A DNA stretch of 64,000 nucleotides from Moniliella sp. 'wahieum' (Eukaryota > Basidiomycota > Moniliellomycetes > Moniliellales > Moniliellaceae), in the NCBI GenBank assembly GCA_003971905.1, contig RSEE01000019.1:434001-498000 (forward strand), given 5' to 3'. The stretch's first letter is position 1; the number at the start of each line of letters is the position of its first letter. This document shows, in pieces, positions 3,435-57,404 of the stretch. A model generated the notes under the pieces. That model saw nothing but the letters and a program-made list of their open reading frames with translations, had not been told where the DNA came from and made no database searches. The position numbers and the translations under genes were made by a program.

Positions 3435-5826
3435 CCCCTGTTTTGTCTTCTTCTTTTTCATCCTCCTCCTCAGTATGGTTATACTCGCCTCGGTTTCTTT
3501 TCTGGTCCCTCTCCCACACGTTCGACTGCTTTATGGCGATGGTCTACGCGCGTCAGCGTGAACGTCTGACCACTTGGAGTGGTCACAGTATGGACTGTTT
3601 TTGTCATGGGCTTGCTTGGGGCTACTGGTATGCAGCGGTAGTGGTACATAGCCATTTTTGTGATATCTTCTTCGAACGTCGAGGATGAGGTAGAGAGAAG
3701 AGAAGGCATTGCGCGGCGCACACGAAAAGGGGTGGCTTGGATTCCTTGCCATGGAGGCTCACTGGCCCAGCAGGACAGCAAAATCATGGACAGTCTCGCT
3801 GACACTGCCGTGCTACGTCGTATTGTGGGTTAGTACGTTAGTACGCGTGGGCCTCTCCGGCCCGCTCGGGCATGCCAATAGGGGTAGGCGAGGACTCAGT
3901 GCTGCGCTAGAAGGCGGCCGACTTGGGACTGCTCAACGTTATGGCGGCAGTCTACGAGTAAATTGATGACCCAGCGTTTTGCTGTTGGCGGCCTGCTTGC
4001 CTCTGTTTCCTGAACCAATCTTGGCCTTGAAGCTTGAAGCGTGAAGCGTGTGAAAGAAAGGTCTTTTGACCATGCCTATCTCCCCACACTATATCCGTCG
4101 GTTCTTCTTTTCTGGCTACTTACTACAGACCACAAGCGACCACCAACAGGGAGACTGGTGTGCCCGCGCGTTCACGGCAGAATCAGATATCATGTTTTTA
4201 CATGCACATGCTGTACCTCTACGTGAGTGTGTGAAGGCGTGAAGAGCGTGAGCCGACGGGGGCTGCGGCGCTGAGGACGTCGAGTGCAAAGTACAAGACC
4301 CCTGCTTACCCGGTGCAGGAGCTACGCCACAGCGGTCAGCGGGTAGGCAGACACCATATGGATTGGCCAGGACCACGTGTGTTCCAACCTGTGCAAGCTG
4401 CCCCAGTGCTCGCAGCTGGTTCAACGTTGAGTTCAAGTTCAACGCAGCTTGAAGCTTGAAGCTTGAATGTTCAACTTGACGCTTGACGCTTGACGCTACG
4501 TGGACGCGTGGACGCGTGATGGAGCCACGGTGCAACAGCAGGCAACAGCATGTGGATGCCCCCCCAGCACCCGTTTCGCCACGCCGCCCATGCGCCGCCC
4601 CCGAGGTCCCGACGCGAGCGGCACATGCCTTCTGCGGGCATCACGCGTCCCTGCACCCCTCCGCCCGTTCTCTGTGCGGGCCCGAACCAGCGTCGCGAGT
4701 ACTCCGGCTGCGTACGCGGTCATTAATTATTGTTGAATGTAAGACCGGAGGAACCCAAGGGATTGGGTGAAGAACCTCTGGAAATGTAGAGCAATGCAAT
4801 CGCGATGGTGGTGGTTGAGGTTTAAGCCTTGTGCCACACTAGAGACAGGGGTTCAGACAAGCCTGAGTATACACGTGGAGGCTTCGGAGGACAAATCAGG
4901 GGTGAAGGGTGATGAGGCGCCTTGGCCTAAGTACGGGACCACGGGTCCCAACATTGAATTTAACCTGTGCTTTCTCCTCGCCGGGCAAAAGGGCGAGGAT
5001 GGATGAGTACGTGTGGCGAGGCGTCGTGCGAACAAGGGGGCTCGCAGCTGGAATGGGGGTGGCAGGCTACGTGCATGGCCTAGGGCGTTGAGTACGTTGA
5101 GTACGTTGGACGGCGGCAGCTATAATCGATGCATGCGATCGATGGTAATTCTCCGTGTGGGGGAGACGGGCGGCAGGAGACGACTGGTCCGAGTGGCAGC
5201 GGCGAGCGAGGGACGGGCCAGGCGGCGAGGGAGGGAGGGGGGATGGAGGAGGCATGGCAGTCGATGGCAGTCGATGGCAGCCGATGGGCGCGGGCCGAGG
5301 TGGGGGTGCGGGGGGCCCAGAAGCGACGAGCGCATCGCCGCCTGAAAAGGGAAAATTTGATTGGCGACAGCACGTGGTCCTCCCGGCCTTGCCGCCGCTG
5401 CGCCCCACCGGGCCACACCCGACCACACCACATGCTCTGCTGCGCACCCCGTGCACCCCACCCGGTGCTGGCCGCGCTGGGCCTGCCCCCAGCATGGCCG
5501 CCGCCGCTGCCCTTGCGCTTGCCCACGGCCACAGCCCTCCTCCCCACCACCACCCGCCATGTCCCCTCCCGGCAGCCTGGGCAGCAGCCCCACCGATCCT
5601 GCCCTCGCCCCTCGCGGCGTCGGCAGGCGCGGTCCTCGCTCTGCCCACGCCACCTCCTGCCCCTGTGTAATCAGGTCGAGGACGATGTCTCCTGTCGCCT
5701 CGCCTCGGTCTCACTCCCCTCGAGGGGGTCGGGGTCGGTTGGCTCGGGCGGGTCTTGCCGCTCCCCCTCAACTGCTGTCTTCCCCTGTTGGTTGGGGCCG
5801 ATGCCTGCTCCTCCCTCTCCTCCTCA
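3435..5826. other. Intergenic spacer, no supported gene
   Basis: No credible coding region was found. It holds an AAGCTT heptad cluster at 4025-4050, a second cluster at 4446-4522 that passes from AAGCTT units through CTTGACG units to ACGCGT units, and a ten-base direct repeat (TCGATGGCAG) at about 5251-5285. The part from about 5390 is C-rich and probably includes the leader of the pseudokinase gene. Confidence 0.5.
4446..4522. repeat. Composite heptad array (AAGCTT, CTTGACG, ACGCGT)
   Basis: Three successive sub-arrays sit side by side. GCTTGAA units occupy 4446-4467, CTTGACG units 4475-4496, and two ACGCGT palindromes spaced by GG lie at 4501-4518. The junctions look like point-mutational drift from one heptad sequence to the next. 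Confidence 0.8.
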
Positions 5827-8517
5827 ATGTCGTCGCGTTATGTCCCACCGCACCTACGCTCCCTCGCCTCCGCTTCCGGTGTGTGGGGGTCGCACGTAAG
5901 CAGTGCATCCTCCAGCCGCTCTTCGAGCCGGAGCCAAAGCCATGGCCGATCTCAGTCCACGCCATTCTTGGTTCCCCCTGGCCCCGACTCGGTTGACTCT
6001 GCCTCGCCCCTGACCCTTCCCCTCGACTCCTCTCCCTCGCCACTCTCCTGCGCCCCTGACACCAGCACCGATCCGGCACCCGTGTCGCCTCTGACTGCAC
6101 CTGCTGCCGTGCTATCATCTGCCCCATTGCCAGCACCAGTCAAGCGCCCCTCCCACCCCGCCAGTCGCCATGTCCCCGATACCCTCAACGAGCCTGTGCT
6201 GGAATTGGGCTGTCGGATCGGTCCAGAGGAGACCCACCGTTCTCACCAGGTCTGTGTGGTAGCTCTCCGGCCCGACACGCCAGGCCCAGCGCCGACGGTC
6301 CAAGTGGTGCAAAGCTTGGGACAAGGCGATTACTCCAGCATATATATCGCGCGCCAAGTCGCTGGTGCACCTTTGCCTTTGCCACCCGATTCCGAGGGAG
6401 ATGGAGAGCTGGTCTTCTTGCTTACCTGCATGTCCAAGTATCACCTCTCCCCTGCCTTGCTGGCCGACGAACTGGCCGAATCGCAGCTCCACCTTTCTCT
6501 CCCCGTCCACCCCAATCTACCAACCCGGTACGCTGTCTTTGCCACGCCCGACCACCTTTTCTTTGTCAGTGAGCTCGTTCTGGGTCACGATTTGTTGGTG
6601 CTTCTCCACCAAGGCGAAGCTCACCTAACCGCCAAGGACCACATGGCTTCGCCGAACGGACACCACCCGAATCCTCTTGCATGGCTGGCTGAGGTCGATG
6701 GTCCTTTGCTCCTCTCCCGTCCACGGGTCCATTTGGTCACGGGCATTTTTGGCCAACTGTGCGATGCGGTCCAAACTCTGCACGGATGGGGCTTGGCTCA
6801 CCGTAACGTGACGTTACAAAACTGCGTGGTCATTGAGAGTCCGACGGTGCACCGAGCGGTCCAGCGCACCGATCTTGCTCCAGAACACGTGGATAAAGAC
6901 GTGCGGTTGAAGCTGATGGACCTGAGTCATCTGACGGACGAGGCGGCGGTGCATCGATGGCGCTTGCGCTCCCGATGCTTACCTTGCGCCGGAATGTTGC
7001 ACGCCCGAGGGCATTGGGTATGATCCCAAGAAGGCTGACATTTGGTCGCTTGGGATTGTTCTGCTGAATCTCCTCTTCCACCGCACCCCGTTTCGAAGGG
7101 CGGATCAAACTGCTTGTCCGTCATACACATGCTTTGTCTCGGACCCCGTCGGATTTCTTCAGACTGCGTTTGACCATCTTACCTTCACCACGGCGTCATT
7201 TTTGGCTCAGCATGTGTTCAACCTCGACCCAAGCCAGCGGGCTTCTCCCGCCCAGGTCGGTTTGTGGGCCAGCACGGCCTTCTGCCATCCTTGACTCATC
7301 CGGACTCCTCCACTCTCTCCCGTGGCGGCTGCGGGCATCACCCTGCCCCTGACGAGCGAGCCAATGTATCAATCCCGTTCCCGATCGCTCCCTCGCTCCA
7401 TGCGTTCCGGCCGGTCGTCTCGCCCTGCTTCCATTCACACTGCACGCTCGGTCCGGGATGGGTTGTTACCCCGGCGCGTGGCCGATCCCGCACCCCGGGG
7501 TATGTATCCGACGAAGAGGGGGAAGCGGAAGACGGGGGCGCGCACCCTGCTAGCCCCCATCCGTCGGGGCGCCGGCGCAAACGGGGAAATCGGAGGGCTA
7601 CATCGGCTCACAAAGGACAGGCCTCTGCAACGGGTCGCAGCTTGTCCGAACAAGCGTCGCTCAGTGCCCTCTCACTGGGGGGCGAGGGCGATTCGGACTT
7701 GGCCTGCCGCCTTCGCCTTCGTCCCTGCTCTCCTTGGCATCTCGTCGCGCTTCCGGCGCCAGTACCTCCTCTCTCCATGGTGCGCAACGGCTTCGGAACA
7801 GCACCACGTACCCCTGCCATGTCCCCGAGAAGGCTGCGCGGTTGCTGGGAACGCCACTTCCCCCCCGCTCCTCCCGTGCAAGCACGGGCGCCGGTAGCTT
7901 GGCCAGCCAGGGCAGTGTAGGAAGCGGGGACGATGTCCAATCGCTCCGTTCTACCTTCTCCTCGCTCCGCTCCGGCCATCCGCAAGTCGGCCGATTCGTC
8001 CCGGCGGCACTACGGCCGGCGAAAGCGGGTTATGGAACCGAAACTTGCAGCCCATTTCCGAACAGCGCGTTCGTCCTGCTCTCCCTCGTGCTCATACTCC
8101 TACTCCTACTCCTACTCTACTCCTTTCCCCGCTGCCTCACGCTCTCTTCCTGCTCTTCCCCGCTTCTCGCCCGCGCTCCTACAAGCGCGCTCCGCCTCCT
8201 CCGCATCCCAAATCGCATGCGCGCACCGAGCTGGATGCGAGTTACTTGGCCGAGATTTTTGGCGTGACGCCGCAGCGGCAGGCGGGGCGGACGAGCGGAC
8301 AACGGTCGCTGCCCAACATGCCCCTGTCGCGGGGCAAGCCCAAGAGCGGCCACGGGCCCAGCTTGCTTGCTGCGGCGCCCACGCTGGCCAAATCACCTTC
8401 CTCGCTCGCCTCGCGCCCCCCGCCGCCTCCTTGGCTCCACCGCGGCCAGCGCCAGCGCCCGAAACCAGCGCGCTCAGCCGCATGTTCCGTGTCGGCCGCA
8501 AGGAAGGACTGCTGTAA
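5827..8517 (+). CDS. Ran1/Ksp1-like protein kinase, probably a pseudokinase
   Basis: This is a kinase-fold protein with a disordered Ser/Arg-rich C-terminal tail. The chosen ATG opens MSSRYVPPHLR. The kinase domain starts near residue 155 with a glycine loop (SLGQGDYSSIYIA). A TCMSK segment follows at the ATP-lysine position, then HPNLPTRYAVFATPDHLFF, which fits the Ran1/Ksp1 type. The catalytic loop at about 6797-6823 reads HRNVTLQN instead of HRDLKPEN, and the DFG position reads DLS at about 6919-6927. The catalytic Asp, the loop Lys and the usual DFG triplet are therefore altered. A YLAPE-like segment and DIWSLGIVLLNLL follow in another frame. The kinase frame stops at 7294. Ser/Arg-rich coding continues in several frames to RMFRVGRKEGLL at the stop ending 8517. 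A pyrimidine-rich stretch around 8075-8187 may be an intron. Loss of catalysis is inferred. Confidence 0.75.
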
Positions 8518-8570
8518 CATTCAACTCCCCTTTTGACCTTCCCTTTCCCCCCTTTCCGCCTTCCATGGCG

Positions 8571-8590
8571 CCCCCCCCCCCCCCCCCCCC
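8571..8590. repeat. Poly-C run of 20
   Basis: Twenty consecutive C residues lie just after the pseudokinase stop. The true length is unreliable given the homopolymer errors elsewhere in this assembly. Confidence 0.9.
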
Positions 8591-11187: not shown

Positions 11188-11266
11188 TCTCCGATAGTTT
11201 AGTGGCTGACACGTCCCTGTCACCAGGACGTTCGGACGAGACCCGGGTTCGATTCCCGGTCGGAGA
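11188..11266 (+). tRNA. tRNA-Asp (GTC) with a short intron
   Basis: The acceptor arms TCTCCGA (11188-11194) and TCGGAGA (11260-11266) pair over seven bases. A D-arm beginning GTTTAGTGG follows. The anticodon stem CGTCC (11212-11216) pairs with GGACG at 11234-11238, and the T-arm is CCGGG-TTCGATT-CCCGG. The anticodon GTC lies at 11219-11221. The standard seven-base anticodon loop is recovered only if about ten bases (11223-11232) are removed right after position 37, the canonical tRNA intron site. A and B boxes are intact. Body length without the intron is 69 nt up to the discriminator G at 11267. Confidence 0.92.
11223..11232 (+). other. tRNA-Asp intron (about 10 nt)
   Basis: The insert follows nucleotide 37 of the anticodon loop. 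The boundary is ambiguous by one base because C flanks both ends. Removing it restores the anticodon stem and a four-base variable loop. Confidence 0.75.
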
Positions 11267-11271
11267 GGTTC

Positions 11272-18850: not shown

Positions 18851-19700
18851 ACGCGTAAACAACCAACTTGAAGTGCATCCTGTATATCATCCATCGGTCT
18901 CCATGGCCCTGGCGCCTAGCGTCGTATGGTTGGGCGTGTGGTATGTGAAGACCCCCGGGAATCCCGGAGTGGGGTCCAGGAGGGGGTGCAAGGATCGGAT
19001 CGGTTCCGCAGTACACTTGCGCGTGCTCTCGGGTCCCTGGATAAAGACCTAAGATCTGAGCCTAAAACCTAAAGCCAAAGCGGGGTGGCCGCTACCCCCG
19101 GGCACATGGCGAACTCTGCGGTCAACGTGCTGTTTCCACGGAACCTCTTCCAGCTTAGGCTCAGATATCAGACCCAGGCTTCAGGAGCTTCAGGGCCTCA
19201 GGCTGAGGCCTGAGCCTCGGGCGTCAAGTTGACGCGGCGTTACAATGGGGCCGGGGGCTCAGGCTGCGGCCCTGAGGCCCTGAGGCCTAATCAGTACGAA
19301 GTGAGGGCCAGACTGAGCGCGGGTAGCGCGGGAAACTGGAAGCTTGACACGTGAAGATAGGAGATTGAATTTAATTATGCACGATGGAGCAGGGAGCTCT
19401 GAGACTCTCGCTATTGCCTGTTGTTGCTATTATTACCGCCGCAGGCTCAACGTTCCTTGATGTGTCCAGCTAGCTAGAAGCTTCAATTGGGCTCAGGCTG
19501 AGTGCGGAGCATGTGAGGCCTTGGCGCCCTCAGGTTCAAAGCATCCAGTACACAGTAACTAGAGTGGCTGCCGATAGCTGGTAAAGCAACCCAGATCAGA
19601 TCTCAGTCTGGGATCGGAGTCGATTGCATAAGGGGGGGGACACGAGAGGGAGCGTCATGCGGGCAAGCATGTGCCCCTGCTGGCCGCGAACGCAAAGCTT

Positions 19701-19735
19701 AAGGCCTAAGGCCTAAACCTAAAGCCTAAGGCCTA
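19701..19735. repeat. AGGCCT heptad array with CCTAAA-like units
   Basis: AGGCCT palindromes separated by single A bases alternate with CCTAAA/CCTAAG words. It resembles other heptad arrays in design; a telomere-like reading is not supported. Confidence 0.75.
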
Positions 19736-21539
19736 CCCGACCACCAGCGGCGAACCAGGTACGATAGTGATAACTACGACGGATAATCGAGATAATCGAT
19801 AATCGAAGACCCACAACAACCACAATATTGTACCGGAAGCTAATACTTTTCTTCGATCCCAAAAAGCATAATCCAACCCGACACGATTGGGCAGAAAATA
19901 GGGGGAGGCGGGACCGAGACTACCGGTGGGCTGCTGGCTCTCGTCTGGCGCTCGTCTCGGCCGTGCGCAGGCGAACAAGAAACGGCGAAAAGAGCGGCGC
20001 ACGAGAAGGGTGCAGGATAGTGCGTGTGGGGGTTGGCACGTTGGCGGTTGGCGCCAACGAAGAGGAGACATGTGGTACGTACCGCCCTCGCTACGTACCG
20101 CCCATCGGAATTTCCGTTTTGGCGAACGATCCACACCCGAGGGGGACCTGGCCCACCCACCTACCCGACCCACCCGACCTACCGACGGTGCCGGCGACTA
20201 GTGGCCGACGAACAGGTGCGTGACGACGTTAGACGTTTAACCTTAATTTTAAAAACCGACAACGCTTGTATGTGAATGTCACATGTCATGTGAATATGAT
20301 ATGGAACAGTGGGCCCGCGGGGTCCCGCTTCCTGACACCTGATGCATGATGCAGGATGCATGACGGCGGTCGCGCGCGGCCCCTTGCCCACCAGTGCACC
20401 AGCCAGCATACAATCGATCACGTTCATCAAATTCAAAGACCATCGAGACCATTCAAGCAGCAAGGCCAGAGTGCGGCCTAGTGCCACATACATGATGGTC
20501 AGGGAAGCGCGAAGCGTGACGCCCGTGACGCGTGACCCGAGAATAGTCACTACTTTCATCCCACATGTCATGTGACATGTGGCAATACGTCGTCTGGGAT
20601 ACGGACGCGCTCTGGTGAGCTTCGCGGGTCCCAGCCACAGTGTCGGTGACATGGTGACACACTCAATTGTTCTGGGCAGCTGGCTCGGACCTGGTCGGGC
20701 CCCAGTAGGCCCCGGGCTGCCCCCGCTGCCCCGCGGATGCACTCAGTACTCAGACTGAGTACTGACTGATGTACTGATGGTTCAGACTCTCCCAGGCTCC
20801 AAAGTTGGATGGAGAAACAGGGAGAAAAAGAGAAGCGCGCGGGCAACGAGAATGAGTAATTGATTGATGAGATCGATGATCCTGCTTGTGGATGCTGAAA
20901 TGGTTCAGCGCTTCAGCGGTTCACCGGTCACCCACCGGTCACGGTTCAACGTTCACCGTTCATGCAGTTCAAACGTTCATGCATCCTGATTAGCGGGCTA
21001 CTACATACAATACTGTTGGGACGTGCCAACGTTTGGGTCTCTGGGATCTGGGGCGAAGGGTTTGGCGGGGAGAGGGAGATTATCAATTCCTGGTGACCTT
21101 CACCGGTGAAGCAGCTGGTAAAGCTGTTGAACGTTGAAACTTGAAGCTCGTGAGAGTCACATCGATGCGCTGAGTGCATCAAGTAGGAGTACCGATGAAC
21201 GAAGAAGCTTGCTTGTGAATATGAGATCGATGAGAGGACTTGAAGCGCTGAAGGTTGACTTCAACTTGAAGGTTGTAAACACAGGAGTTCGAAGCTTGGA
21301 ATTGAATGTTGAAGGGTACGCTTGAAACTTGAAGCTTGAACGCTGGAAGAGTAGGAACATAGAAGCGCTGCAGGCCACGCACGAGCCCATGAATCAGCGG
21401 TTAATAAGCCGTCAGAAAAAAGGGGTGTAGGACGTGTAGGGCCTAGGCGTTGACATGCTGACACGTTGGCCGTTGCCCTTGAAGCCGAAGTCGTCGCAGC
21501 AGCCCCCAGCCCAGTGTGCACGAACAGGACCATGATACA

Positions 21540-21572
21540 CATGATGCATGATGCATGATGCATGATGCATGA
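21540..21572. repeat. ATGCAT heptad array
   Basis: Four ATGCAT palindromes at seven-base spacing with a G between them. Shorter copies of the same unit lie at 20338-20365, 21676-21690, 21765-21780 and 22052-22068. Confidence 0.9.
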
Positions 21573-23317
21573 CCTCCAGCCAATTGCGCACCACAGAGCT
21601 GGCTGATACCTACGATCTAAGATCTAGTCGTCGGCCTGATCGATGATCTATGGTCAAAGGTCTCAGATCGTCTGATTGATGCATGATGTATGATCCACGG
21701 TGCATGGTGCGACCGGTGACCGGTGACTGATTTGTACGTCGATTAGTGATCAATGAATGATTAACGATGCATGATGCATCGTGTGAGATGTGGGATGAAT
21801 GATCGATGATAGGACTACCGCCTATTAAGGACAAGTCGGTGGTCTATTGCAACCCCAAGCAATACCCGTCCGTACCTTCGTGAATGCCCAGCGCGCGCAG
21901 CGCTGTCCATGTCCCCCGTCCAACGTCCATGTCAACGCAAGTCAGTACCGTACACGTACCGGCGCAAAGGGGTCAGGAGGACGGGTGACACGGTGACGGA
22001 CGCACGCGTGTTGCTGGTTGTGCAACGCTGGGCACTGGGCTTGATCGACAGAATGCATGATGCATGGACTCGGAGGATGGAGTGGTCACTAGGTCACTAA
22101 AGTTACATGTCAAAGACAGCACCACTGACAGCCGTCTCTCTTTCGGGGCGCCTAGGTTTCACATGTTCTCCGAGCACGAGCCTGCACCAGCCTGGCAGGA
22201 AGAACCCCGGTGAGCATCCCTGTTCCCATTTGAAACGTGGTGCATATCGAAACGTGCAATTGCGACCGATGAGTCCGATGCCAGTAACTAGTAAATGGGT
22301 ATAAACGTTTTTTGAACGCGTGTACCGTACCATCGGCCATCTCATAAGCGCTATGCGCTGCGCGCTAATAATTAATAACTAGCTGTTCTTGTGTGTGAAA
22401 TGCTATACCAGGCTGTACCCCGTCAGTGCCTCGCTGGCCTCACCGATCGGCACGTTGCTTCGCCAGACGCGGATGGATGGCTATCCCATACAAGGCAAGC
22501 GCTATAGGACGCAAAGGCGCCGCACAAGAGACACACCCTACTGCAGCTCCGATATGGCGCGGGGGAAGGGTGCGCTGCGTGGTGGCCTGCGCGTCGCTGA
22601 TGCAAACTGGGGTGGCCCATGGATTACGAAGGCAGAATATGAAAAGAGGAGCAGGCCAGCCTAGCAGCTGCGCTGCGCCTGAATCCTGACGTCAGTACCA
22701 GTGAGGCCCGAGGGCAGGAGGGGCAGAAGAGGAAGCTCAGATCTCAGATCGCAGAAGAGGGGTTGGAGGGGGTGCGGCTGGCCAGGCACGGCAACCAGCG
22801 GGGGCGGCGTGGGTGGCAGGTGTTGTGGTGGGTTGTATTCGATGCTCTGCGCGGCCAGGCGAAAGGCAAGGGCAGGCGAGGGCAGCACAGTCAGACTGGC
22901 GTAGTGGACCCTGGCTGCGGTGAGCGCAGCTGGAAATCAAGCCACCTCCGCTGTGGAACCAACGCTGGGTACGTACATCAGCACAATATCCCATCGGTGG
23001 GCAGGGGCCGCAGAGCAGCAGAGTGCTGCGCTGTGCTGCGCTGCCCCACGCTGCGGCTCGAGGCCCAAGGCGGAGGCCTAAGGCCGAACAACCAGCAGCG
23101 CAGGGCTGCTATAGCAGTTGCTACAGCATAGCAGCTCGATAATCGCAACCCTGCGCTGCTGACGCGCTGGCGCTGTCCCTGCATGCTGCCGCTACGCAGC
23201 ACTCAGGCCGCCGTCCCCCCCTCCCCCCACGCGCCGCCTCGTCCTCCTCCCCCCCCAGCCTGCCCGCCGCCATCGCCCCCCCACCTCGCCTCCCCCCCCC
23301 ACCCACACGCCACCCCC

Positions 23318-25228
23318 ATGGCTTCTGTCCTCACCGACACGTCCCTTGCCGCTGTGGGCCCACCCCCGCTCGCTTCCGACTCGCCTGCCCCTCCCGTCAC
23401 CGTGACGGTGGCCAGGCCCCGCGACCTCCACACCGCCTCTGCCTCCCGCCGCCCACCCCCCCTGGGCCATGCCACCCCCGGCACCGACTTCTTCGCCCCT
23501 CCTCCAGGCCCAGGCGCCAACAAAAAGCCCACTGGCATCACCGCCTTCTCCCTCGGCATCGGCTTCTCCTGGGGGGTGAGAGGAGCCAGACCCGATCCAA
23601 TCGACCCAGCCCGATCCTGCACCTGCTCTGTCCTCCGTCCCCAGCAGTCGTGACGCTTCCACCAACCCGGCCATCATCGCCTCTCCTTTTCTGTCTCCTA
23701 CTGGCCCCCAGCCCACTGCCAACGGTAGGGCAGAAGAGGAGCCCGCTCTCGTTTCGCCTCGGCCAGCTCCCGCCCCAGAGCTCCACTCCAACACATTGGT
23801 TGGGGCTTCCCAAGCTGCCCCAGGAGAACCAGTTGGACAACCCCTGGTCTTCCGGTGAGCTGCCCTCTTCTGCCTCAACAGGTTCGCCATGGCCCGCCTA
23901 CTCGGCTTGGTACGGATCCCAACCCTCATCCGCCCTGCTGGCTTCATCCACTGTTCATCCCGAATCGCTCAGCATCTCTCCTTCCACCTCGTCTTCCCCG
24001 CCCACCCTATGGTACCCCACCATTGTCCAGTCCCCTGTACCAAGATATGCCGTCCGCCTCGGCTCATCCACTTCCTTCACCTTGCCTCTTCTGGTGAGCC
24101 CGCACTCCCAAGAAGCGGCTCACCCCATGGAACCATGGAACCAAAAGCGCTCTGGCGAGGAGCATGATGCCAGTGTCTCTGTCCCCATTCTCACCACCCC
24201 CGCCCCGGAATCAGCCCTTGGCAAAGAAAATGGCCATGAGAGTGCATCCGCCGAGGGCAAGCCGACGACGAACCGGACGAGTGCAACGATCTTTCTGTCC
24301 AGCAGCCAAGTCCCAAAGAGAACGACAAAGAGTCCGAACCCATTTCCCCACCACGGACGACCCTGCCAAGGATCCTAGCAAGTCTCCCGGTGATCGAGGT
24401 AGAAAAGCTCCCCGTCGTGACACCAAGGGCCTCCCACGCCAGTTTGCCTGCACCATCTGTGGCACGGCATTTGCCCGCAACCACGACCTGCGCCGCCATG
24501 CTCGTATCCATATGGCCAACAAGCCCTATGCTTGCACCACCTGCCGCAAGCAGTTTTCGCGCAAGGATGCGCTCAACCGTCATTGGCTGTCAAATCTGGC
24601 TGCCAATTCCGCCGACGTTCTTCGCAAGGCGCTCCCCTCCTCGCGCCTGGCGCGGGGGCAACCGAGGGAGTAACTGTTGCGCCCCACGCGCCGTACCCGA
24701 CAGCCGGCATCCCACCTCCCTCTCGAATGACCGAGTATCAGCCCTACACTGTCGGTCTCTCCAACCCATCCGACTCGACGCCCCTGCCGCGCCCGGGCGT
24801 ACCTGCCCCGCTCAACATGGGCTTTGACTACAACCCGATGGTGCCATCCATGTACAACCCCAGCTCGGCTCCGAGCGAGTACGGGCGGATGGGCATGTAC
24901 GCACCGAGCGCGGCCAAGCCGGTCCCGATGGTGTACCTACCCGCCTCCCACCCGTCCATGCCCTTGCTCTTTTCCGACACGTTGCCCGGCCCGCGCGCGC
25001 TCTGCCACCGTTCCCGGGCCCAGCCCGGACTTGTGGCTCGGGATGGGCCGCGCTCCCGCCGACAGTCTGGACCCGAGCCTGAGCGGGCCGATGGCCTCCC
25101 ACCCCCCCGGCTCGTCCTCCCAGGACCCTGGCGTTTCGGCCAACGTCCCCCTCGGCTTTATGCCGCTCTCGTCCCCCCACCAACGGCCGAACGCACAGGG
25201 GGGCGTGGGCAACCCCATGTGGCGCTAA
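23318..25228 (+). CDS. C2H2 zinc-finger transcription factor
   Basis: Probably a nuclear DNA-binding regulator. From the ATG at 23318 (MASVLTDTSLAAVGPPPLAS) a long Ser/Pro/Thr-rich region leads to two adjacent C2H2 fingers at about 24442-24594. Finger one has CTICGTAFARNHDLRRHARIH and finger two CTTCRKQFSRKDALNRHW, joined by a MANKPYA linker close to the TGEKPY type. Finger two is cut by a frame change right after its first histidine, so its last zinc ligand is not resolved. The C-terminus is Pro/Met/Tyr-rich (MTEYQPYTVGLSNPSD, YNPSSAPSEYGRMGMYAP) and ends NPMWR before 25229. The paired-finger, Pro-rich layout recalls fungal Crz1-like factors, but orthology cannot be claimed. The reading switches frame at least four times, in part through possible short introns. 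Confidence 0.82.
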
Positions 25229-26904
25229 TCTCGCTCCCAACTCGGGTTGTTGGGCTCTCATCTCAGTGTCGATGAAAGACGTGCCGAATAGGCTTCCATC
25301 ACCACCACACTGTCTTCTCGTGGCGAGGGCGCAATCTGCGTTCCTTCTCGTATTGCTCTGGTACATGAGCTTCCAACCCCTTTTTTGAACCTCGATCTGG
25401 GGTGGTCATCAGCCCCCTACTCGCCGTGGCCTGTGGAGATCCCATTTGAGCCGATACGGTAACCCCATAACCCCCTACCATACCCTTCCAACTCGGCTGT
25501 TCAGTGCCGAGTCACACAACTTGGTGGGTTTTTTCTCCCTTTGGCCGTGATGCATGAGATGGCTTCCTGTACGTGTGCAAACCTTGTCTGAGAGAGGCTC
25601 TGGCCGTACTTGGCTCACGCTTTGTGCGCTGGGCAACAAAGCGGCGGAAAGCCCCAAGACGGTCTATTTTTTTGTCCAGCGCTCACTGGCTCTCGTTCTC
25701 TCTCTTTGGCCTATCCCTACCTCTTCCTCTTCCCTCTTCCGTCCCCATTTCCTTCCTCACTGCTGCCTTCTTTTTTTGCTTCTACTTCTCTACCCCGGGT
25801 TGGCCTGTGCTGGCCACATCCAATCTGCCTACATATGTTTTGCTCGTGCTCCTCTCGCCCCGCCCACTGTATGGACCTGTATCTACCCTCTACCCCCCTC
25901 CCTTTTCCGTGCCTGCTTTGCCTCTCGCCTTTGCCCCCCTCTAAGCCCTCTCCCCCCGCCCCGCTTTCTGTGCCCCCTAGCGCTTAGCTCCCGCGACCCC
26001 CCCACGACCAGATGGCAGTCGTTTTTTGTCGCGCACGAACGCTCGCTCGCCCTCGCTATCGTACCAAGTACCCCTGCTTGGTTCATAACCGTAGACCCCA
26101 TTCCCCTATAGTTGACCTTAGTCGCTCGGTCGGTCTCCTGTCTCGTATCATTCAAAATGTGTATAGCATGTAAGGTTTGGTTGGTAGTTGAGGTCTTGCG
26201 CGGTCCAGTGTCTTGTGGGTACCCTCAGATCCTCTCTCCTGCTATCCTCACTCGCAGTAACAGACCGATACACCACATCAGAGAGCGATGATCATGTCGA
26301 TGATCGATGAGAAGCGTGACGTCACGAGACCTAGGAGGCGAAAGATTGCGTCTGAGTGTCTCAACGCTCACCAACGTCCAACGTCTCCCTAGCCGAGCGC
26401 ACCCTTTCACATGGAACTGTGCTCCCTCTCGGGGTTTTACAAGCGGGGCAAAGGGGACAAAGGGGGGGAGGGGGGGCAGTAGCGTGTGTGGTTTTGAACC
26501 TATGGTGAACCACACCATTGTGCACCGCATAATGCATGTAACATGCATACTCCTGATCCTCAGGCCTCATGCACCTCATGAGGTTAATGATGCCGATGTG
26601 GATTCAGTTTGGCTCCAGGGGACAAGTCGATTGTTCTCCATCTCAGGCACCACATAATGCTGTGGTTCGGCGTGGCCAACGTCAACGTGATCAAACCCCT
26701 GAGCCTCATGCTTCCGGGCGTCAGGGCAGTGTTTCTTGTGTACTGTGAGTACAGGAAGACTAATACAATGCACGCGACCAGCTGGTGCTTGGCACATTCC
26801 ATGTACCATGAGAGATCCATGAGGTCATGGGATGAGGAGAATGTCTTCGGCTGTTGGGTTGGCTGTTGCATGGTTGTAGCTTATCTGACCGGGACGTGTG
26901 GGAC

Positions 26905-27475
26905 GTAGGTACGTTGAACGTTGAACGTTGAACCCGTTGGGCGTTGAACAGATTGACAGGCATCGAACATGCGACAAGAGATGTGTGCTGTAACATGTGG
27001 CAGCGTTGTTGACATTTTGACAGGACGCCTGTTGGAACGTTGAACGTTGATGCATGCATGATGCACGGTAGCCGGTAGCCGGTAGCTGGTAGCCGTAGAT
27101 GTCGATTATGGCACGCGGCAAGTGACTAGTGACTAGCGTGTGACATGTGATATACATGTGACACATACTTGTCAATGGACAAGGCTTGAAGCTTGAAGCT
27201 TGAAGCTTGAAGTGACATGTGACATGTGACAACTGTGGCAGCTCGCCCTAGCTAATAATGTGTGCATCGTGCCTGGCGTGTGCAAGTGACTAGTGACTAG
27301 TGACATGTGACATGTGACATGCATGGCATGCGACTGTGACTTAATGATTGATGATCGATGATCGATGATCGACGACATCGATGATCAATGATTAATGACA
27401 CGTGCTGCTCTGTTGAACACGTTCAACTTTTTGGCATATACGTTGGGCGCATTACGCGTTACGCGTTACCGAGCG
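26905..27475. repeat. Composite block of seven heptad-repeat families
   Basis: Within 570 bases lie AACGTT units (26911-26933 and 27033-27049), ATGCAT (27049-27066), ACTAGT (27121-27136 and 27286-27300), ACATGT (27140-27163, 27213-27230 and 27301-27318), AAGCTT (27184-27212), ATCGAT (27351-27374) and ACGCGT (27452-27468). Each is a six-base palindrome plus one spacer base, tandemly repeated two to four times. Confidence 0.85.
27184..27212. repeat. AAGCTT heptad array
   Basis: Four GCTTGAA units at exact seven-base spacing run directly into an ACATGT heptad array at 27213-27230. The same unit recurs at 4025-4050, 4446-4467, 21321-21341, 32680-32712 and 57382-57404. Confidence 0.92.
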
Positions 27476-28239
27476 TTACCCGTTAAAGGGCGACGGACCG
27501 AGGCTGTTGAGGCTCCCGACACGCCAGTGGGAGAATTGACACTCAACGCGTTCGTGTTCGCCCTCGCGTTTGCGTCATCACCCGGGTTACTATATGCAGT
27601 TTTGGGCTGCGAAAACGATGCCCGCGAAGCTTTTTCCAGCGCGTTCAAGACGCGTAAACGCGTGTGAACGGTGCACGTTGAGATCGACGCGTCTAACGAT
27701 TAGGGCAACGCCCTAAGCGGGTTATTTACATGCATTGCACGTTACAAGTTGCCCGCGCCCGCGAGAGCACGCTCAGTACCTAATATACACAACGGAGAGA
27801 GTTTCGCGTGCCTCTGCAGCAGCCGTTCCCTATAGGCTCTGTATGACACACAAACAGCACCGAGTATTCCATGGCGTTTTGAGTTCATGTGAACGGCCAC
27901 AGAAGAGGTTCCACAGATAGAACGTCTCGGAGTTTTTTTTGCAGCTGCTTGTGAACGTACGCTGGAACTTTGCGGTATAGTGAGAAGCGTTTCTTCTGTT
28001 CCTGCCATATTCCGATCATTTACAGAGCTTAATAAGGCTTTTGGACAAAGACACCTATTCTGCCCCTGGTTTGTCTTCACGTGTCTCAAATGGTATATGC
28101 ATTCAGCAGAAGGAAACAAAATGAAGGTGAGTGGGAGATCTCTAAGAAAGGTGCAGGGACATGCGAGGGGTCTTGCATATGCTCCCGGGCAAGGAGCTTG
28201 ACTTTCAGCTTAACTTGGGAATCGCACCTTTCCCTTTTT

Positions 28240-28275
28240 TACCTGTACCTTTACCTTTACTTTTACCTTTACCTT
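28240..28275 (+). repeat. CTTTAC hexanucleotide microsatellite
   Basis: About six imperfect CTTTAC/CTTTTAC units in tandem in an intergenic region. Confidence 0.85.
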
Positions 28276-29238
28276 GATGTTTGAAGGCTCTGCACGGGTC
28301 TCAAGTTGAACGTTGACACTCGCCTAGCCGGCCGGAAGAAGAGATCCCCTCGGAGACGCGGCGCACTCCCTGTGGGCTCTCCCCATCTCCCTCCTCTTTA
28401 TCCAGTCTTCTTCCCTTCAGATGTTGCTTGAAAACTTGTGGCTCACCATACTTCTTCGTTTTATGCATTTTGTCTGAAGGCTACTATGCAATAGGATCCC
28501 CGTCAGAGTGTTCCCAAAGCCGCCAGCACCCGGTGGCACTTTACTCGTTGAAGGTTGACTCCAAAGCTTATAACGAGAAAACGACGAAAGACTTTTTGGG
28601 GGGGTGGCGAAGCTGTCCATGAAGGCTGTCAGCAAACAGGATACCGGCACTTGGGTACTTAAATCTGAGACGAGATGAGATGCACTTCAGAGCTCTCCGT
28701 AGTGTAATGTTGGGGAGCACACCTTTGTGTCCCTAGTATAATAGGCTAAAGCAAATCCTGATAGCGAGGGCTTTGTCGGGCCCAGCTAGACCTGCACCAC
28801 TGGATTCGAGGAGTGTCAGAGCTGAAATAGCATGACGAGACCATCCGCAGTGGTAGCGAGGAAGAGCAATGAATACAGCTCTCAGACTCACAATGCGCTT
28901 GATGCGTGCTCGAAGAGCGCGCTGAGAGGCGAGTGCTGAGTGCGGAGCGTGAGAAGCTAGAAGGTTGAGCTTGGAAACTGGAAGGCGCTGGTATCACGTG
29001 CCCTTGCGCAGGGCGGCATGCTTACGCAATTAGGCAACCCCACTGGGATCATCGGCCATTTGATCAATTGGATCGATCATCGATACTTTTTGCTCCCGCC
29101 GGCACTGGACTGCTCCACCTTTCTGGCCAGCAGCCCATCTTCTGGCCTCCAGCTTCCCGCATCTGCCATCCGCTCGTTCGTCATCCACTGCCCCCCCGAC
29201 GCGTCGTTTCCTTGTGCTCTGTGCTCCCCGCCATCCCA

Positions 29239-50895: not shown

Positions 50896-52005
50896 GGCGA
50901 GGGGATGGTGGAGGCGGCTGAGGACGGCCAGTCGCACAGGGCGCGGGAGGGCAGATGAGATTGGCAATCAAGTGACTAGTGACTTGTGCGTGAATTGGGC
51001 AGCAGCAGCTGGCCGTTGCGGTAAACTTGAACGTTGAACGTTGCGTTTTGAACGCGGGAGGAGTGAAATGCGAAACGATGATGTGATGCATGCACCTGCG
51101 CTTGAAAGTTGAAGCTGAGCCGGCGCGGCGAGCTCTGAGTCTGAGATCTGAGCGTAATTAATAATTGTCTTCCCACGGCCTACGGCCGGAGGCGGCCCGG
51201 AGTGCGGCGTACTGCCTGTCCCGTGTGGGGCGGCGTGGCTTGCTCCGCAAACAGTAGTGCAGCGCACTGGCGCCGTGCGGTGCGCGATATGGCTCGGTTG
51301 CCCGCTGCGCTGCCGACTACACAATCGGCGCGACTGAGTGGCCGGTGACTAAGACGAGTGGGCAGGATGCCTGATGTGACACTGATGCATGATGCCTGCC
51401 GCCAGAGACACAGGGCATGTGCCATGTCACACGTGACCTATGACTGGACTGGTTGTGCATTGTGATGCATGTGGACGCCGCGAAGACGATAGCGCCCCCT
51501 TTCGGCTCCTTAGTAAATCCTCTCACTCCAAGCCCCATCCTGCCTCTGCTTCTCCATTCTCCATCTTCCCTAGATGGCTTGCTGCCCTGCGCTTCGACCA
51601 TGGCAGCAAAAAGGAGATCCACATCGGACAAAAGCAGGCGCCAACCTCCTGTCGGGAGGGCAGAGCAAAGCCACAGTGGCTGTGGCTCTGCTGCCAAAAG
51701 GCCAAGTGTGGAGCATAAACGTGAAAGAGACAGGCGGGAGGAGGCCAGTAGCCAGCAAGAGGCAGAAAAGCGTTCTCTTATTACGTTAAACGTTTAACTT
51801 CGACGAGGCTTTACCGTAGTGGTCTGTCGGTGCCTCAAACAGGCCTGAGGCCCGAGAGAGACTGCCTCTGTCCTCAAGCTCACGCTGGCCTCGCTCAGGG
51901 GACCCGGGACAAAGAATGGAGGGAAGCAGCAGACCCACTGCTCCACCTAGTCAAAGGTACACTGACAGCGAGAGCGCGTGTCGTTTCCTTACCGGCCTTA
52001 CCGCC

Positions 52006-52032
52006 TTACCGGTTACCGGTTACCGGTTACCC
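52006..52032. repeat. ACCGGT heptad array
   Basis: Three TACCGGT units at seven-base spacing with flanking partial units. Here the spacer base is T, whereas most AAGCTT and ATGCAT arrays use G. Confidence 0.9.
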
Positions 52033-52506
52033 TAAAGCTGACGGATCCGTATATGGGAGACATTGTAGACGCTGACAACGTCGGCAGAAAGCACATGCTG
52101 CTCGTAACAGGGCACGCGTCTCAGTTTCTGGGGAACACCGTGTCTCTGTATCGAGTACCCCCTAACCACGCCGGAACGGCACTTGTTCCTGGCGATGCAG
52201 CCGCCGCTTCATAAGTAGCTGCTATATAAGTACTACTAGGTACACTCTTTGGCTGGCAGACTATGTATAGTAGCAAGGGCTACATTAGTAGTGAGGTAGG
52301 GTCAAATTCCCCTTTACTGCCACCGCGGGCCTATACGGCACCCTACTATTATGGCACCCACGGCGCCCTATGGCCGAGTTGGGTGGATTCTTCGTCGTTT
52401 TATAGGAAGTAGTAGGTGCCGGGACGTTTCTTGAGGGCCGAGTAACTAGTGAGGCTTGAGAGGCTTGAGGCTCAGACCCTCAGGGTTCTACAAAGATCAC
52501 AAGCAG

Positions 52507-53412: not shown

Positions 53413-53703
53413 ATATATATCCTGTGTCTGTCAATCGTGGAAGTGATCGAGCTCATCTCTGCTTGATTTCTTTATTGTCTTTCACCCATCATGGACACCA
53501 TTGTGTCAATATTAGCTATACTTCTACTAATATATGCGGTCTCGGTTGGTGTATGCATCTTTAGTTCTCTACAACCGTCCCTTGTCTGGACCATCTCGTC
53601 CGATAGCCGACGAACCAGATCGCTAGCAGGCAGTATGTCCTTCATGCGCACCACCCCTGTGCCAGCCCAGGTGACGACTCTGTCCAACCGTGAAGGACTG
53701 TAG
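53413..53703 (+). CDS. Possible small membrane protein antisense to the nitronate monooxygenase gene
   Basis: A TATA-like GCTATATATATCC near 53411-53422 lies about 70 bases upstream of an ATG at 53491. That ATG opens 70 codons beginning MDTIVSILAILLLIYAVSVG, a clear hydrophobic helix. The frame overlaps, in antisense, the 3' end of the nitronate monooxygenase-like gene. Its hydrophobicity could simply mirror the opposite strand's codons, so this is a weak candidate. Confidence 0.22.
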
Positions 53704-54679
53704 GCAGTGCGGTAGGTTTCCTTGCCCGCATCGAACTCAGCAACGTTTGACTATACAAGCCGCGTCCGTCGACACCAGAGGGCCAGCCCAACGTGCCCCT
53801 CGCATGGTCAAACGCAGTAGACCGCACAGTAGGTTCATCCGGATTGCCCTGCATCCCTGGTGTGTCGGATCCGGCATGCAGCAGTTGTTTCTTGGCCGTC
53901 ACTGTAGAGTGCCTCGGGGTCAAGAGGAAGCGGGTGCCAAAGACAGCTGCTCGGCGCCAGCCGCAATGAGATGGCCTGCCTCTTGCCCGTTGGCTAGTCC
54001 TCCGGCAACAAAAGCACGGCCGCATGTTGTGCGTCGCAAACGCAGTCTGAACTGATCCAGCAACGCTCGTACGGGTGGAGCGGCAGCCATACCATGTCCT
54101 CCCTCCTCCTCGTGGCCCGTTAGAGAAAGCAGTGGGATTGTACGCAGCGCTTCTTGGGCTTCCTTTAAGGTTCCGACCCCAATCACGATCTGCACTGCTT
54201 CGCTCGTTCCACGAAACTGGTCATCCCAATACTGGAGATAGGCGATCCATGCCCCCAACTCCTTGGCCTGTCCAAATGAGAACCACACTGCCGCGACCCG
54301 CTCCGAGGCAAGTAATGAACCAGTTCATGAGCCGGGCTTGTGTTGGGCGCGTCTGAGCGGTGAGGAAGCTGACCATTGGCCAGTTGGGTCAACCTCCAAC
54401 CAGCACACCGACTCCAATAGGTTTCCGTTCGTTTGGAGGCGTCAAGGAGGGCAAACCAATCGGTGGAAGCAATAAGCAGCTCAGACCGTAACTGGTCGGG
54501 GCCAGTCCCGGCAACCGCAAAGCCTACCGCCAGCGCGCGTGACCGCGCCGCCAGTGCGCCGCCCGATGCTGTGGCAAGAGGGCCACGATAATGGGCACCT
54601 GCAGTGGACCCAACGACCCTGGACACGTGCGGCCAAAGAAGTGCTTGGTTAGGGACATGAAGCCGCGCTGGATGCTCAT
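53472..54679 (-). CDS. Nitronate monooxygenase-like flavoprotein
   Basis: This family (formerly 2-nitropropane dioxygenase) uses FMN in a TIM barrel to oxidise alkyl nitronates. The ATG at 54679 gives MSIQRGFMSLTKHFFGRTCP. The N-terminal strand region reads GPLATASGGALAAR and VGFAVAGTGPDQLRSELLIA. Later segments are MWFSFGQAKELGAWIAYLQ, VQIVIGVGTLKEAQEAL, GHEEEGGHGMAAAPPVRALL (the EAGGHG-type loop), AFVAGGLANGQEAGHLIAAG and GTRFLLTPRHSTVTAKKQLL. The C-terminus VTWAGTGVVRMKDILPASDL matches the family AGTG-VxxIxPA ending. Frame slips occur near 54260 and 53960. The last 20-30 residues before 53472 are poorly conserved. It lies 427 bases downstream of a P450 on the same strand, an arrangement compatible with a shared metabolic role but not proof of one. 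Confidence 0.8.
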
Positions 54680-55106
54680 TAGCTAGTGGGGAGGCTCCGC
54701 TTAAGTATATGTTGCGCTCGGACGAGCGGAGCTAGTAAGAGCGCAGTAACCCATGGCGGCGATCGTGGAGGACGAGGGCGGGCACAAGATACATGATGCC
54801 CCAAATTGATCTCGATGCCCATGGCGGCCCTCCAGCTGCCTCAGCCGGCAGATCTGACAAATAGAGACCGAAAAAGTTTGGCTAGGCTATATGCATCACC
54901 ACTGGAGCAGTGTTGGGTATATAAAGGCACTATCCGCCTTTGCATCCTATAGAGACGTCTCGCACACACATACAGCCACTAGTTACCAGTTACCGTTCAC
55001 TGCTGGTCCCTGCGGCACGGTAATAACACCCCCAGAGGTGGGCGCCTTGGAGCTACTCTGGCCACTGACGGCATTCCATTGGATTATGAATAAGTGCAGG
55101 TTCTCC
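54680..55106. other. Spacer between P450 and nitronate monooxygenase-like genes
   Basis: 427 bases with no gene. It must contain the P450 3' end and the promoter of the flavoprotein gene, both read leftward. Confidence 0.5.
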
Positions 55107-57067
55107 TCAAATGCTTGTCCGCTTGTGTAGCGTCGCCTTGTATGGCAGGCGGAGCGGCAAAGTCAGGGTCTGGGCATAAACGGGATACGCGAGATGAGAC
55201 ACGTCTAAGTGCACATCGAACTGGCCCAACAGCGCAGCCAGCACAGCGCAACCCTCATACATGGCCAACGTCTGCCCGAGGCAGAGCCGCGGCCCTGCAT
55301 TGAAGACGTGAAAGACAAACGGGCTGAACGTCTTGAGCGACCCGTCTTCAGGGTTTAAGAAGCGCTCGGGCCGGAACTCTTCACAGTCTTCGCCCCAAAT
55401 CTCCGGCATGCGTGCCATGTGTAATCGGACCAGAAGATGGTGGTTCCCTTTTGAATGAATGTCGGGCAAGCGCTTGCCCGCTTGGCCCCGGTGCCATAAG
55501 GATCGTCGGGCCCTTCCCCCACCCAGTTTCGCGTAGGGCTGAATCACGTCATCCTCTGTCGCGTACTTGAGATTGCGACAGACAGGTGGCCAGAGACGAA
55601 GCGCTTCGCAAAAGACGGCTTGGGTATAGGGCATGGCCTTCAAGTCGTCGTATTCCATCAAACGTTGCTCCTCACCTTCCCCTAAGACACGGGCCACCTC
55701 TTGTCGGAGCTTAGCCACCACATTGTCTGCGTTGCGCAGCTCGTACAAGGTCCATGTCAAACCCTGTGCGTCGTCTCGTCCGCGAGAAGAAAGTTGAGGA
55801 CAACCGCCAGGAGCTCCTCCCGCCCGAGTCCTTGGTCGATAAAATGCTGAAGTAGATCCTTCCCATCCTTGCTCTGAGCGCCTTGAGCCCCTCCATTAGC
55901 TTGATTCTCCATCCGCTTGTCAATTATGCGATAGCAGGCCTCCCGGATCACACTGAGGGCTTTGCGCATGTCCCGCCCTTGACGGGAAAAGCACTCGGTG
56001 AGTTTCCATAACGGGTTGCTAAAGCGCAGACCAGCCACCTTTTCGGCAAAGTCGAAGGCAGCAGCAAAGGGTACCTCAGTTGCCAACCCCTCTGCCTTGG
56101 AGCTTCAGAGTAACAATTGGGTATGTCAGTCAGCGTTCACCCAACATGGGGCGGGGGGCGTACGGCAAGCATCCCAAGTCGGCTCCGAATGCCATGGTCC
56201 CAAACGTATCAAGTGTATACCGAAAGAAGATATCGGGCAGATTTACGGTTGAAGGCTTTGCTGCCAAATCGTCGGCCAACTGAAGCAAGATGGCAAGATC
56301 GTGCTGAACAGTGCGCTGGACATGTGTGCGAAAGTTGGAGACGGAGAACTATATACCAAAATGAGGATGAATCAGTGCGCTTTTGAGTGGCAAACATCGT
56401 CATTTTGGGGGGGAAACGTACAATATGCGAAGCCAACTTGCGCTGGCGCTTCCACGCAACTCCATCCGCTACAAAGATGCCCGTCTCGGACAAGAGGTCG
56501 GAGAGACATTGGCGAAAGGGGGCCCCCTTCACGTACTTGTGGAAACTAGTCTTGGAACCTTGGACCCATGCCAACAGCTCGGGTCGGTTGATGACCGTGG
56601 TGCGGGAACCTAGGGCAAGGGGATATGAAGGGCAAACGGCATGCCCCCGGCGCCCGTGTTGTGCTGCGCTTGGGTCATCAAGTCCAGCCCACCTTCGTTG
56701 CGACCTTGTAGTCCCCGTACAAGCTCGCGCCAGTTTCCCACGAGGGCCAAGCTGCCGGGGACGATGGCCACCCCGGGCACTCGTTTCACCCCCAGCGGCC
56801 GGTCGGGTATAGGACCACGCCCACCAGGAGCAGCAGCACGGATGTGCTCAGAATGATCCAGGGGACGGCGCGGAGATCGATGGGGCCAGCAGGAACGGCA
56901 TTCAGGCGAATGACAGAGCCGAGAGGCAGCTTTTGGGAGAGGAGGTGGTGGAGTTCATGGCAGCAGTAGAAGCGACTTGCGTCACAAACGCATTGGCCAA
57001 AGCAAAAACCCCGCTTTGGCAACGGCCTGTGAAAGTCTGCCTCGTTTGCACATGAGCAATTCCACAT
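55107..57067 (-). CDS. Cytochrome P450, CYP86/CYP52-like fatty-acid hydroxylase type
   Basis: This is an ER-anchored heme monooxygenase. A hydrophobic anchor (WIILSTSVLLLLVGVVLYP) precedes RVPGVAIVPGSLALVGNWRE. The substrate-recognition region includes YVKGAPFRQCLSDLLSETGI and DGVAWKRQRKLASHIVRF, characteristic of the CYP86/CYP52 clan. FDFAEKVAGLRFSNPLWKLT follows. The I-helix is split by a one-base slip near 55785; restored it reads FLLAGRDDAQGLTWTLYEL. ExxR is EALR within FCEALRLWPPVCRNLKYATE. PERF is FRPERFLNPEDG. The heme loop FNAGPRLCLGQTLAMYEG has its Cys. The stop is at 55107. The ATG at 57067 adds an unlikely N-terminal extension; 56956 is an alternative in another frame. An intron or slips lie near 56100-56200 and 56600. 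A fatty-acid or alkane substrate is inferred from family resemblance only. Confidence 0.92.
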
Positions 57068-57130
57068 TTCAAAGTGCAGTCCATATATGCTCTTGCCGAA
57101 ACGCAGGGGACCTCACCGGAACTTAACCCG

Positions 57131-57154
57131 TCACGCGTCACGCGTCACGCGTCA
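57131..57154. repeat. ACGCGT heptad array
   Basis: Three ACGCGT palindromes separated by single C bases. It lies in the divergent spacer between the P450 and the small plus-strand gene. Confidence 0.9.
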
Positions 57155-57381
57155 AGAGCTTCAAGCTTCATCGATGAATGACGTTAATGACGCGGAGCGG
57201 ACGCGTCGGGCATTAGGCGGAGTACGTTGTACGCACAGCCAAGCGACTGCACCTGAGTACTGGGTGCCTGAGCGCTGAGCCTGCGCCCAAGTAACTGAGC
57301 TGAGGCTCAGCGCTGAGGCGCTGAGGCCCAGCCTGAGCGGCAACCAATGGTCTCTAGTGGCTAGTGGCACTGCGCGCTAGC

Positions 57382-57404
57382 GCTTGAAGCTTGAAGCTTG
57401 AAGC
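57382..57404. repeat. AAGCTT heptad array
   Basis: Three GCTTGAA units at seven-base spacing, the same unit as at 27184-27212. Confidence 0.9.

Follow-up and report, generated by a model that had tools for sequence, protein, structure and literature searches.

Ordinary microsatellites have no common sequence rule. CNG triplet repeats form hairpins, their unit being a palindrome plus one unpaired base, and both of their strands fold. In rad27-deletion yeast, fold-back of a stalled nascent strand is reported to lead to palindrome extension, duplication, and amplification (PMC5677150), and short template switches create reverse-complement repeats (PMC8794818). Palindromes are also found in mitochondria, as the LIMP palindromes of Lobosphaera (PMC4524435) and the (A)n-TA-(T)n palindromes of Fusarium (PMC7218506), and heptameric repeats occur in bacteria such as Xanthomonas and Nostoc, where the repeat studied is described as G-rich and quadruplex forming (PMC4692102). 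In this study, tandem repeats with a seven-base step (heptads) and a palindromic core were analyzed in a window of 64,000 nucleotides (G000, contig C19, positions 434001 to 498000) and in the remainder of the 69.5-Mb eukaryotic assembly of 223 contigs to which it belongs. Like the LIMP and Fusarium palindromes, the heptad arrays are palindromic, repetitive, intergenic, and variable, but the former are mitochondrial and consist of one hairpin with repeated arms (PMC4524435, PMC7218506), whereas the latter are varied small palindromes in tandem. The arrays share the seven-base unit of the bacterial heptamers (PMC4692102), but here the units are self-complementary instead.

The palindromic heptad pattern is real, strong, and genome-wide, and short seven-base repeats of one rule number thousands in the DNA between genes. 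Runs were defined as perfect period-7 stretches, mostly of at least 15 bp (at least 12 bp for minimal products and location). Of the 34 runs in the window that reach 15 bp, 22 contain a palindromic hexamer, while five dinucleotide shuffles gave means of 1.0 runs and 0.0 palindromic runs. Such arrays had been pointed out in a sequence-only reading of the window, which these figures confirm; all 13 arrays that it named are present, within a base or two of where it placed them, although that at 19701 to 19735 is interrupted. In a genome sample of 28 segments of 10 kb (280 kb) from other places in the same genome, with the window left out, 98 runs reach 15 bp, of which 53 are palindromic, and 50 of the 53 have the form A-N4-T. 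Genome statistics also leave out the second copy of the window on contig C14 and the ribosomal DNA (rDNA) loci (L029 to L032). The palindromic share in the sample is far lower at step 6 (2/112), step 8 (4/26), and step 9 (7/64); the share at step 14 is 13/31, and these runs are taken to be pairs of heptads. Among noncoding period-7 runs, the share climbs from 9% at 8 bp to 41/50 at 19 bp or more, and the sequence-only reading is therefore not refuted by its own test of equally common nonpalindromic repeats; nevertheless, 45 of the 98 sample runs are nonpalindromic, so the palindromic plan is not universal.

Exact patterns were also counted over the whole genome, per strand, with the identical pattern read backwards as the control. 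AAGCTTN repeated three times occurs 1081 times versus 0 reversed, TGACATGTGACATGTGA occurs 317 + 349 times versus 0 + 0, CATGATGCATGA 1574 + 1573 versus 3 + 3, TTACCGGTTACC 437 + 390 versus 18 + 11, and GCTGAGCGCTGA 335 + 380 versus 7 + 4. The looser chain TGA(N4TGA)x3 gave 3340 + 3108 versus 620 + 578. The loose TGA chain thus exceeds its control about 5-fold, and the exact repeats exceed theirs at least 28-fold.

The A-N4-T plan of the sequence-only reading holds for nearly all palindromes of the sample, but the fixed element is rather the triplet TNA, mostly TGA or TCA and less often TAA or TTA, and the better description is a self-complementary tetramer between two TNA triplets. The smallest product is 12 bp long and has the form W-z-W, in which W is y'x'TNA or TNAxy and z is the reverse complement of the dinucleotide of W; z therefore reverse-complements the dinucleotide adjoining TNA, as a fold-back template switch would. 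Exact 12-bp runs in noncoding DNA are A..T-palindromic in 82/312 cases, compared with 2/96 in one shuffle, and other palindromes number 16, compared with 11 in the shuffle. The W-z-W phase is found in 47 of 69 12-bp runs (27 left-type and 20 right-type). The center triplets of 12- to 14-bp runs are TSA in 130 cases and TWA in 29, with six other classes together accounting for 22. TNA-anchored palindromic heptads are described in no title or abstract opening among the matches listed from the open-access literature, a scope outside which most subscription papers fall.

All triplet pairs around palindromic tetramers were screened in 344 kb, which is also the scope of the loop-triplet and stem-length counts. 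TCA..TCA, equivalent to TGA-N4-TGA, came first (248 versus 27.7 expected), and TAA..TAA came second (33 versus 4.3). The tetramer is palindromic in 248/464 TGA-N4-TGA and 33/72 TAA-N4-TAA sites, while seven other triplets tried (TAG, TGC, AGT, CGA, CGG, GGC, and TGG) gave 3.5 to 8.5%. Of 209 isolated TGA-N4-TGA sites, whose neighbors differ at no fewer than two of four bases, 72 are palindromic (all-triplet median, 5.9%); where at least three bases differ, 14/80 are. Among the first 100 TGA chains of three heptads listed (contig C1 only, overlaps included), 172 of 300 tetramers are palindromic, and neighboring tetramers are two different palindromes in 15 of 200 pairs. Different A..T palindromes lie exactly 7 bp apart 16 times, compared with 2 to 6 times at each of steps 8 to 13; they do so again 16 times at step 14 and about 10 times per step past 20, where clustering raises the number. 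Because different palindromes neighbor each other at heptad spacing, the plan is more than the copying of one unit. Odd palindromes centered on TGA were rejected as the primary object: isolated TGA centers keep pairing at 0.29 to 0.34 over the first four steps, while other centers tried do so at 0.195 to 0.36, and since this excess is only slight, the TGA-centered odd palindrome looks mostly like an array by-product.

Among steps 5 to 21, six-base junction palindromes are clearly raised at step 7 alone (92/514 versus 5/115 shuffled). Together with the absence of a comparable palindrome excess at steps 6, 8, and 9, this supports the earlier remark that the pattern is not to be expected from ordinary slippage. 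The stem length is nearly fixed at two bases: with TSA loops, counted as overlapping sites on both strands, there are 24 one-base stems (10.6 expected), 281 two-base stems (0.66 expected), 0 three-base stems, 3 four-base stems, and none of five or six bases. Unlike that in fold-back template switching, the copied segment is thus not variable in length. Two-base stems also occur with four-base loops (step 8; 56 versus 5.1 expected) and five-base loops (47 versus 1.3), in keeping with the remark in the sequence-only reading that the step is occasionally 8. The five commonest loops of either size all contain TGA or TCA (23/56 and 12/47, respectively), which accounts for that occasional step. All 16 dinucleotide half-sites are present, at 2 to 69 per thousand sites. 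One cause suggested earlier, a double-strand enzyme binding or modifying A-N4-T palindromes, is therefore unlikely, as an enzyme indifferent to the half-site would need no symmetry.

The second copy of the window lies on C14 at about 626001 to 665280 and is colinear at the three stretches tested (window positions 19259 to 29170, 50950 to 52499, and 56850 to 58250). No second copy of one test stretch from contig C1 was found elsewhere, and the C14 copy may accordingly represent either a haplotype or a duplicated segment. Between the copies, 619 of 11,713 aligned positions differ (5.3%), with an ungapped identity of about 95%. Among the 53 window runs that reach 12 bp, 17 have equal length in the copy, 12 have another length, 2 have a different unit, and 22 are absent, while the 50 runs of the copy fall into classes of 17, 13, 6, and 14 in the window; the absent class includes runs broken by one substitution. 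Differences in array copy number (12/53 window arrays) are as expected of microsatellite slippage. In addition, some sites have a single heptad in one copy and a bare W in the other, as read by eye from the alignments at 22366, 22685, 28547, and near 51062 and 52430, and at 21183, where the heptad is half of a 14-bp gap. The clear cases are CCTGA-GG-CCTGA, TCAAG-CT-TCAAG, TTGAAG-C-TTGAAG, TAATAA-T-TAATAA, AGTGA-CT-AGTGA, and CTTGA-AG-CTTGA, and at 52006 three TTACC-GG heptads face one TTACC. At 57129 to 57157, which was re-read by eye since the printed alignment is misleading there, both copies have a CG-TCA-AG site and one CGCG heptad, to which two CGCG heptads are added in the window and one AGCT heptad in the copy, so that the two sides of a single TCA have expanded, each with its own dinucleotide. 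Near window position 57170, the copy (L032) has one extra TCGA heptad (TGA-TCGA-TGA) in place of a single GATGA, seen by eye and left uncounted. The window also has a TTTACC hexamer array at 28238 to 28275 that is 79 bp longer on C14 (L029).

The best of the readings tried, though not a proven one, is fold-back of the nascent strand at TNA, inserting a 7-nucleotide (nt) mini-hairpin and followed by more rounds or slippage; it has a little less than an even chance of being correct. During replication, a nascent 3' end that had just copied y'x'TNA would release about five template bases and fold on itself, leaving TNA as the three-base loop. The folded end would copy y'x' into xy and then resume on the still-free template, where the five bases would be copied again, converting y'x'TNA into y'x'TNA-xy-y'x'TNA. 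The net insertion would be one 7-nt mini-hairpin, y'x'[TNA]xy, and an event on the opposite strand would use the dinucleotide on the other side of TNA. Arrays would be lengthened by further rounds or by ordinary slippage and eroded by mutation. Of three causes that the sequence-only reading had offered, hairpin-mediated heptad duplication fits best, because six-base junction palindromes are in clear excess at step 7 alone, the minimal product is W-z-W, and the copies differ by heptads.

Several observations weigh against fold-back. Three-base stems, expected to be more stable, are missing, and the rates by dinucleotide show no significant correlation with stem energy (Spearman -0.34, P = 0.20). 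The DNA energy table gives all 64 triloops one value and cannot explain TNA; triloop stability as the cause of TNA is thus neither backed nor rejected by a table that does not distinguish triloops. Four-base junction palindromes are slightly raised at step 8 (47/275 versus 14/123) and step 9 (57/351 versus 14/140). The loops ATG, CAT, ATC, and GAT also score (28, 22, 12, and 10 sites, respectively), although they are read mostly as TGA arrays such as (ATGCATG)n in another register and are not counted separately. Three different palindromes in a row require more than one event per TNA. In the comparison of copies, besides the substitution-broken runs within the absent class, some 7-bp differences do not follow the rule (GGTTTAT at 21833 and a CGGGAGG tandem near 51062), the difference TAGGA-TA-TAGGA is palindromic but has the loop GGA, and gap lengths in the 10-kb alignment have no peak at 7 (7 bp, 4; 8 bp, 7; 9 bp, 4). 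Furthermore, with two copies compared, every difference could be a loss between copies of W rather than the gain that fold-back would produce.

Nascent-strand fold-back would place the heptads close to events in rad27-deletion yeast (PMC5677150) and to short template switches (PMC8794818), in which the new strand copies itself and returns to the template, likewise leaving a reverse-complement copy and duplicated sequence. The heptads resemble this known class but differ in fixed geometry and scale and are not a typical member. The 21 yeast events have varied lengths (PMC5677150), whereas the step of 7, the stem of 2, and the TNA loop hardly vary here, and a given 12-base product recurs hundreds to thousands of times within one nuclear genome. 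As a rule, short template switches are inferred singly; one genome here appears to hold thousands with near-fixed geometry, and the second copy of the locus shows template-switch-like products both present and absent. Nascent-strand fold-back and return is a long-standing question that the heptads make directly testable, and what look like palindromic "motifs" in the spacers of genomes of this kind may be scars of mutation instead of binding sites. A stronger version, which takes up the repeat-generating polymerase activity offered as a cause in the sequence-only reading and in which a polymerase complex at TNA folds back over exactly two bases and copies five a second time, acting as a constitutive, geometrically fixed mutational machine that writes mirror heptads between genes, is unlikely. 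It is just as doubtful that such a machine would write fast enough to alter many spacer arrays within about 5% divergence and would constitute template switching with its own sequence code.

Biased ordinary slippage is a somewhat unlikely alternative. Chance period-7 seeds would arise anywhere, and self-pairing units would form hairpins when slipped and expand or persist, making a six-base palindrome plus one base the heptad counterpart of a CNG triplet. The growth of the palindromic share with run length, the ability of arrays of either strand to fold, and the 12 of 53 window arrays in which an existing array changed length are consistent with it, as is the mostly uniform orientation within arrays, though mixed arrays such as AAGCTTGAAGCTTCAAGCTT exist. 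Expansion should, however, act on any self-pairing heptad, and the rarity of C..G, G..C, and T..A palindromes (3/53 in the sample and only 16 versus 11 shuffled at 12 bp) therefore counts against slippage. In addition, six-base junction palindromes have no clear excess at other steps, the excess is present already at 12 bp in the W-z-W phase, and different A..T palindromes are concentrated exactly 7 bp apart. The heptads share the palindrome-plus-one-base unit with CNG repeats, but their arrays have many different units, are mostly short, and start from five ordinary bases, and expansion does not follow hairpin stability (no significant energy correlation). With ordinary microsatellites they share head-to-tail units and length differences; here, TNA and self-complementarity are common to unrelated units, and self-complementary units are preferred (53/98 period-7 arrays).

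A dedicated polymerase, nuclease, or recombinase that recognizes TNA and adds two templated bases, its geometry setting the step, would account for the near-fixed two-base stem and the TNA specificity, neither of which is explained by stem energy. Such an enzyme is nevertheless decidedly improbable. A search for family-A polymerases, aimed at a theta-like enzyme, gave 0 matches, but it was run exon by exon, missed even the mitochondrial polymerase that fungi are expected to have, and is uninformative; no other candidates were sought.

Transposon excision, leaving footprints with a three-base target duplication of TNA, was also considered, since TNA has the symmetry of a target site and inverted-repeat ends would presumably leave a palindromic footprint. 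This origin was rejected as extremely improbable. Footprints predict 10-bp TNA-N4-TNA products with free flanks, but no preference for the corresponding phase is seen among exact 10-bp runs (8/73), and the tetramer tracks the host dinucleotide beside TNA, as at 57129 to 57157, rather than constant element bases.

The arrays are mostly intergenic, as the sequence-only reading had stated. Coding-like sequence was called with a home-made model trained on 153 open stretches rather than from an annotation. By this model, 67 of the 72 A..T arrays that reach 15 bp are noncoding, and among plan runs of 12 bp or more, just 16 of 241 fall within coding-like sequence, although such sequence makes up 51% of bases; coding sequence would reject heptads because 7 bp shifts the frame. 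An assembly or sequencing artefact would not avoid coding sequence and is barely credible, the more so as 17 of the 53 window runs have equal length in the second contig.

Arrays cluster, the gap to the next run being less than 100 bp in 37% of cases. Neighboring arrays with different palindromes up to 100 bp apart have a common orientation in 65 of 83 pairs; this falls to about half at 300 to 3000 bp and is 279/467 at 3 to 10 kb. In spacers between same-direction genes, 64 of 90 arrays carry TGA on the sense strand (baseline, 0.50), while single TGA and TCA occur there at equal frequency, and by region the bias is 15 versus 4 with one tie (P = 0.019). The corresponding counts are 26/41 near divergent genes and 12/26 near convergent genes. 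This sense-strand bias is suggestive, and it counts in favor of a selected function of the arrays, which would either supply TGA stops to each of the three frames of spurious transcripts or act in regulation or binding. A selected function is still very unlikely, as convergent genes show no bias, array presence varies between copies at 5% divergence, and stop codons need no palindrome. Stop codons in three frames were rejected specifically: TAG-N4-TAG is not palindromic (7/82), and TCA arrays, the same repeats on the other strand, give no stop on that strand.

Table 1. Arrays of the window, with their state in the homologous copy on C14 where recorded
Window position	Array	Homologous copy
629..647	TGA-CTAG heptads (ACTAGT+G)	
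1764..1780	TCA-CTAG heptads (ACTAGT+C)	
4026..4040	TGA-AGCT heptads	
4446..4467	TGA-AGCT heptads	
19700..19716	TAA-GGCC heptads	Scored absent, 13-bp gap
19791..19806	TAA-TCGA heptads	Scored absent, 17-bp gap
21540..21572	TGA-TGCA heptads, 4.7 units	Only CCATGGCC; 37-bp gap, 5 bp shared (CATGA)
21711..21727	TGA-CCGG heptads	Other length
22366..22378	Single TAA-TTAA heptad (TAATAA-T-TAATAA)	One TAATAA
22685..22689	Bare W (CCTGA)	CCTGA-GG-CCTGA
26911..26933	TGA-ACGT heptads, 23 bp	16 bp
27035..27065	TGA-ACGT heptads joined to TGCA units, different palindromes with common TGA	
27121..27136	TGA-CTAG heptads	Same
27184..27212	TGA-AGCT heptads	
27212..27231	TGA-CATG heptads	
27285..27321	Mosaic, TGA-CTAG then TGA-CATG heptads	CATG and TGCA units
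27350..27372	TGA-TCGA heptads	23-bp gap
27452..27469	TTA-CGCG heptads	Same
51027..51043	TGA-ACGT heptads	Same
52006..52031	TTA-CCGG array, three heptads past first TTACC	Single TTACC
57129..57154	Three TCA-CGCG heptads	One CGCG heptad, then TCA-AGCT heptad at same TCA
57382..57404	TGA-AGCT heptads	Same

The rDNA on contig C41 matches the eukaryotic small-subunit, 5.8S, and large-subunit families. A CTTGGTCATTTAGAGGAAGT stretch in it resembles the ITS1-F fungal primer site, suggesting a fungus, and this copy presumably departs at many places from the usual fungal 18S and 5.8S text, perhaps as divergent or decaying rDNA. Eleven 18S matches with 93 to 99% identity to a conserved query lie on C2, C6, C21, C33, C37, C39, C41, C83, C89, C137, and C178, several of them close to contig ends.

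The window has a GC content of 0.588, and among nine of its open frames scanned, the Pfam matches above the cutoff were to cytochrome P450, Na/H exchanger, P-type flippase, kinase, and F-actin capping protein. ARAGORN calls a selenocysteine tRNA at 11188 to 11267, which is probably false because Rfam found nothing in the window at its threshold. At 58841 to 59551, a tandem repeat with a 27-bp unit in about 26 copies (78% matches) overlaps long open frames on both strands.

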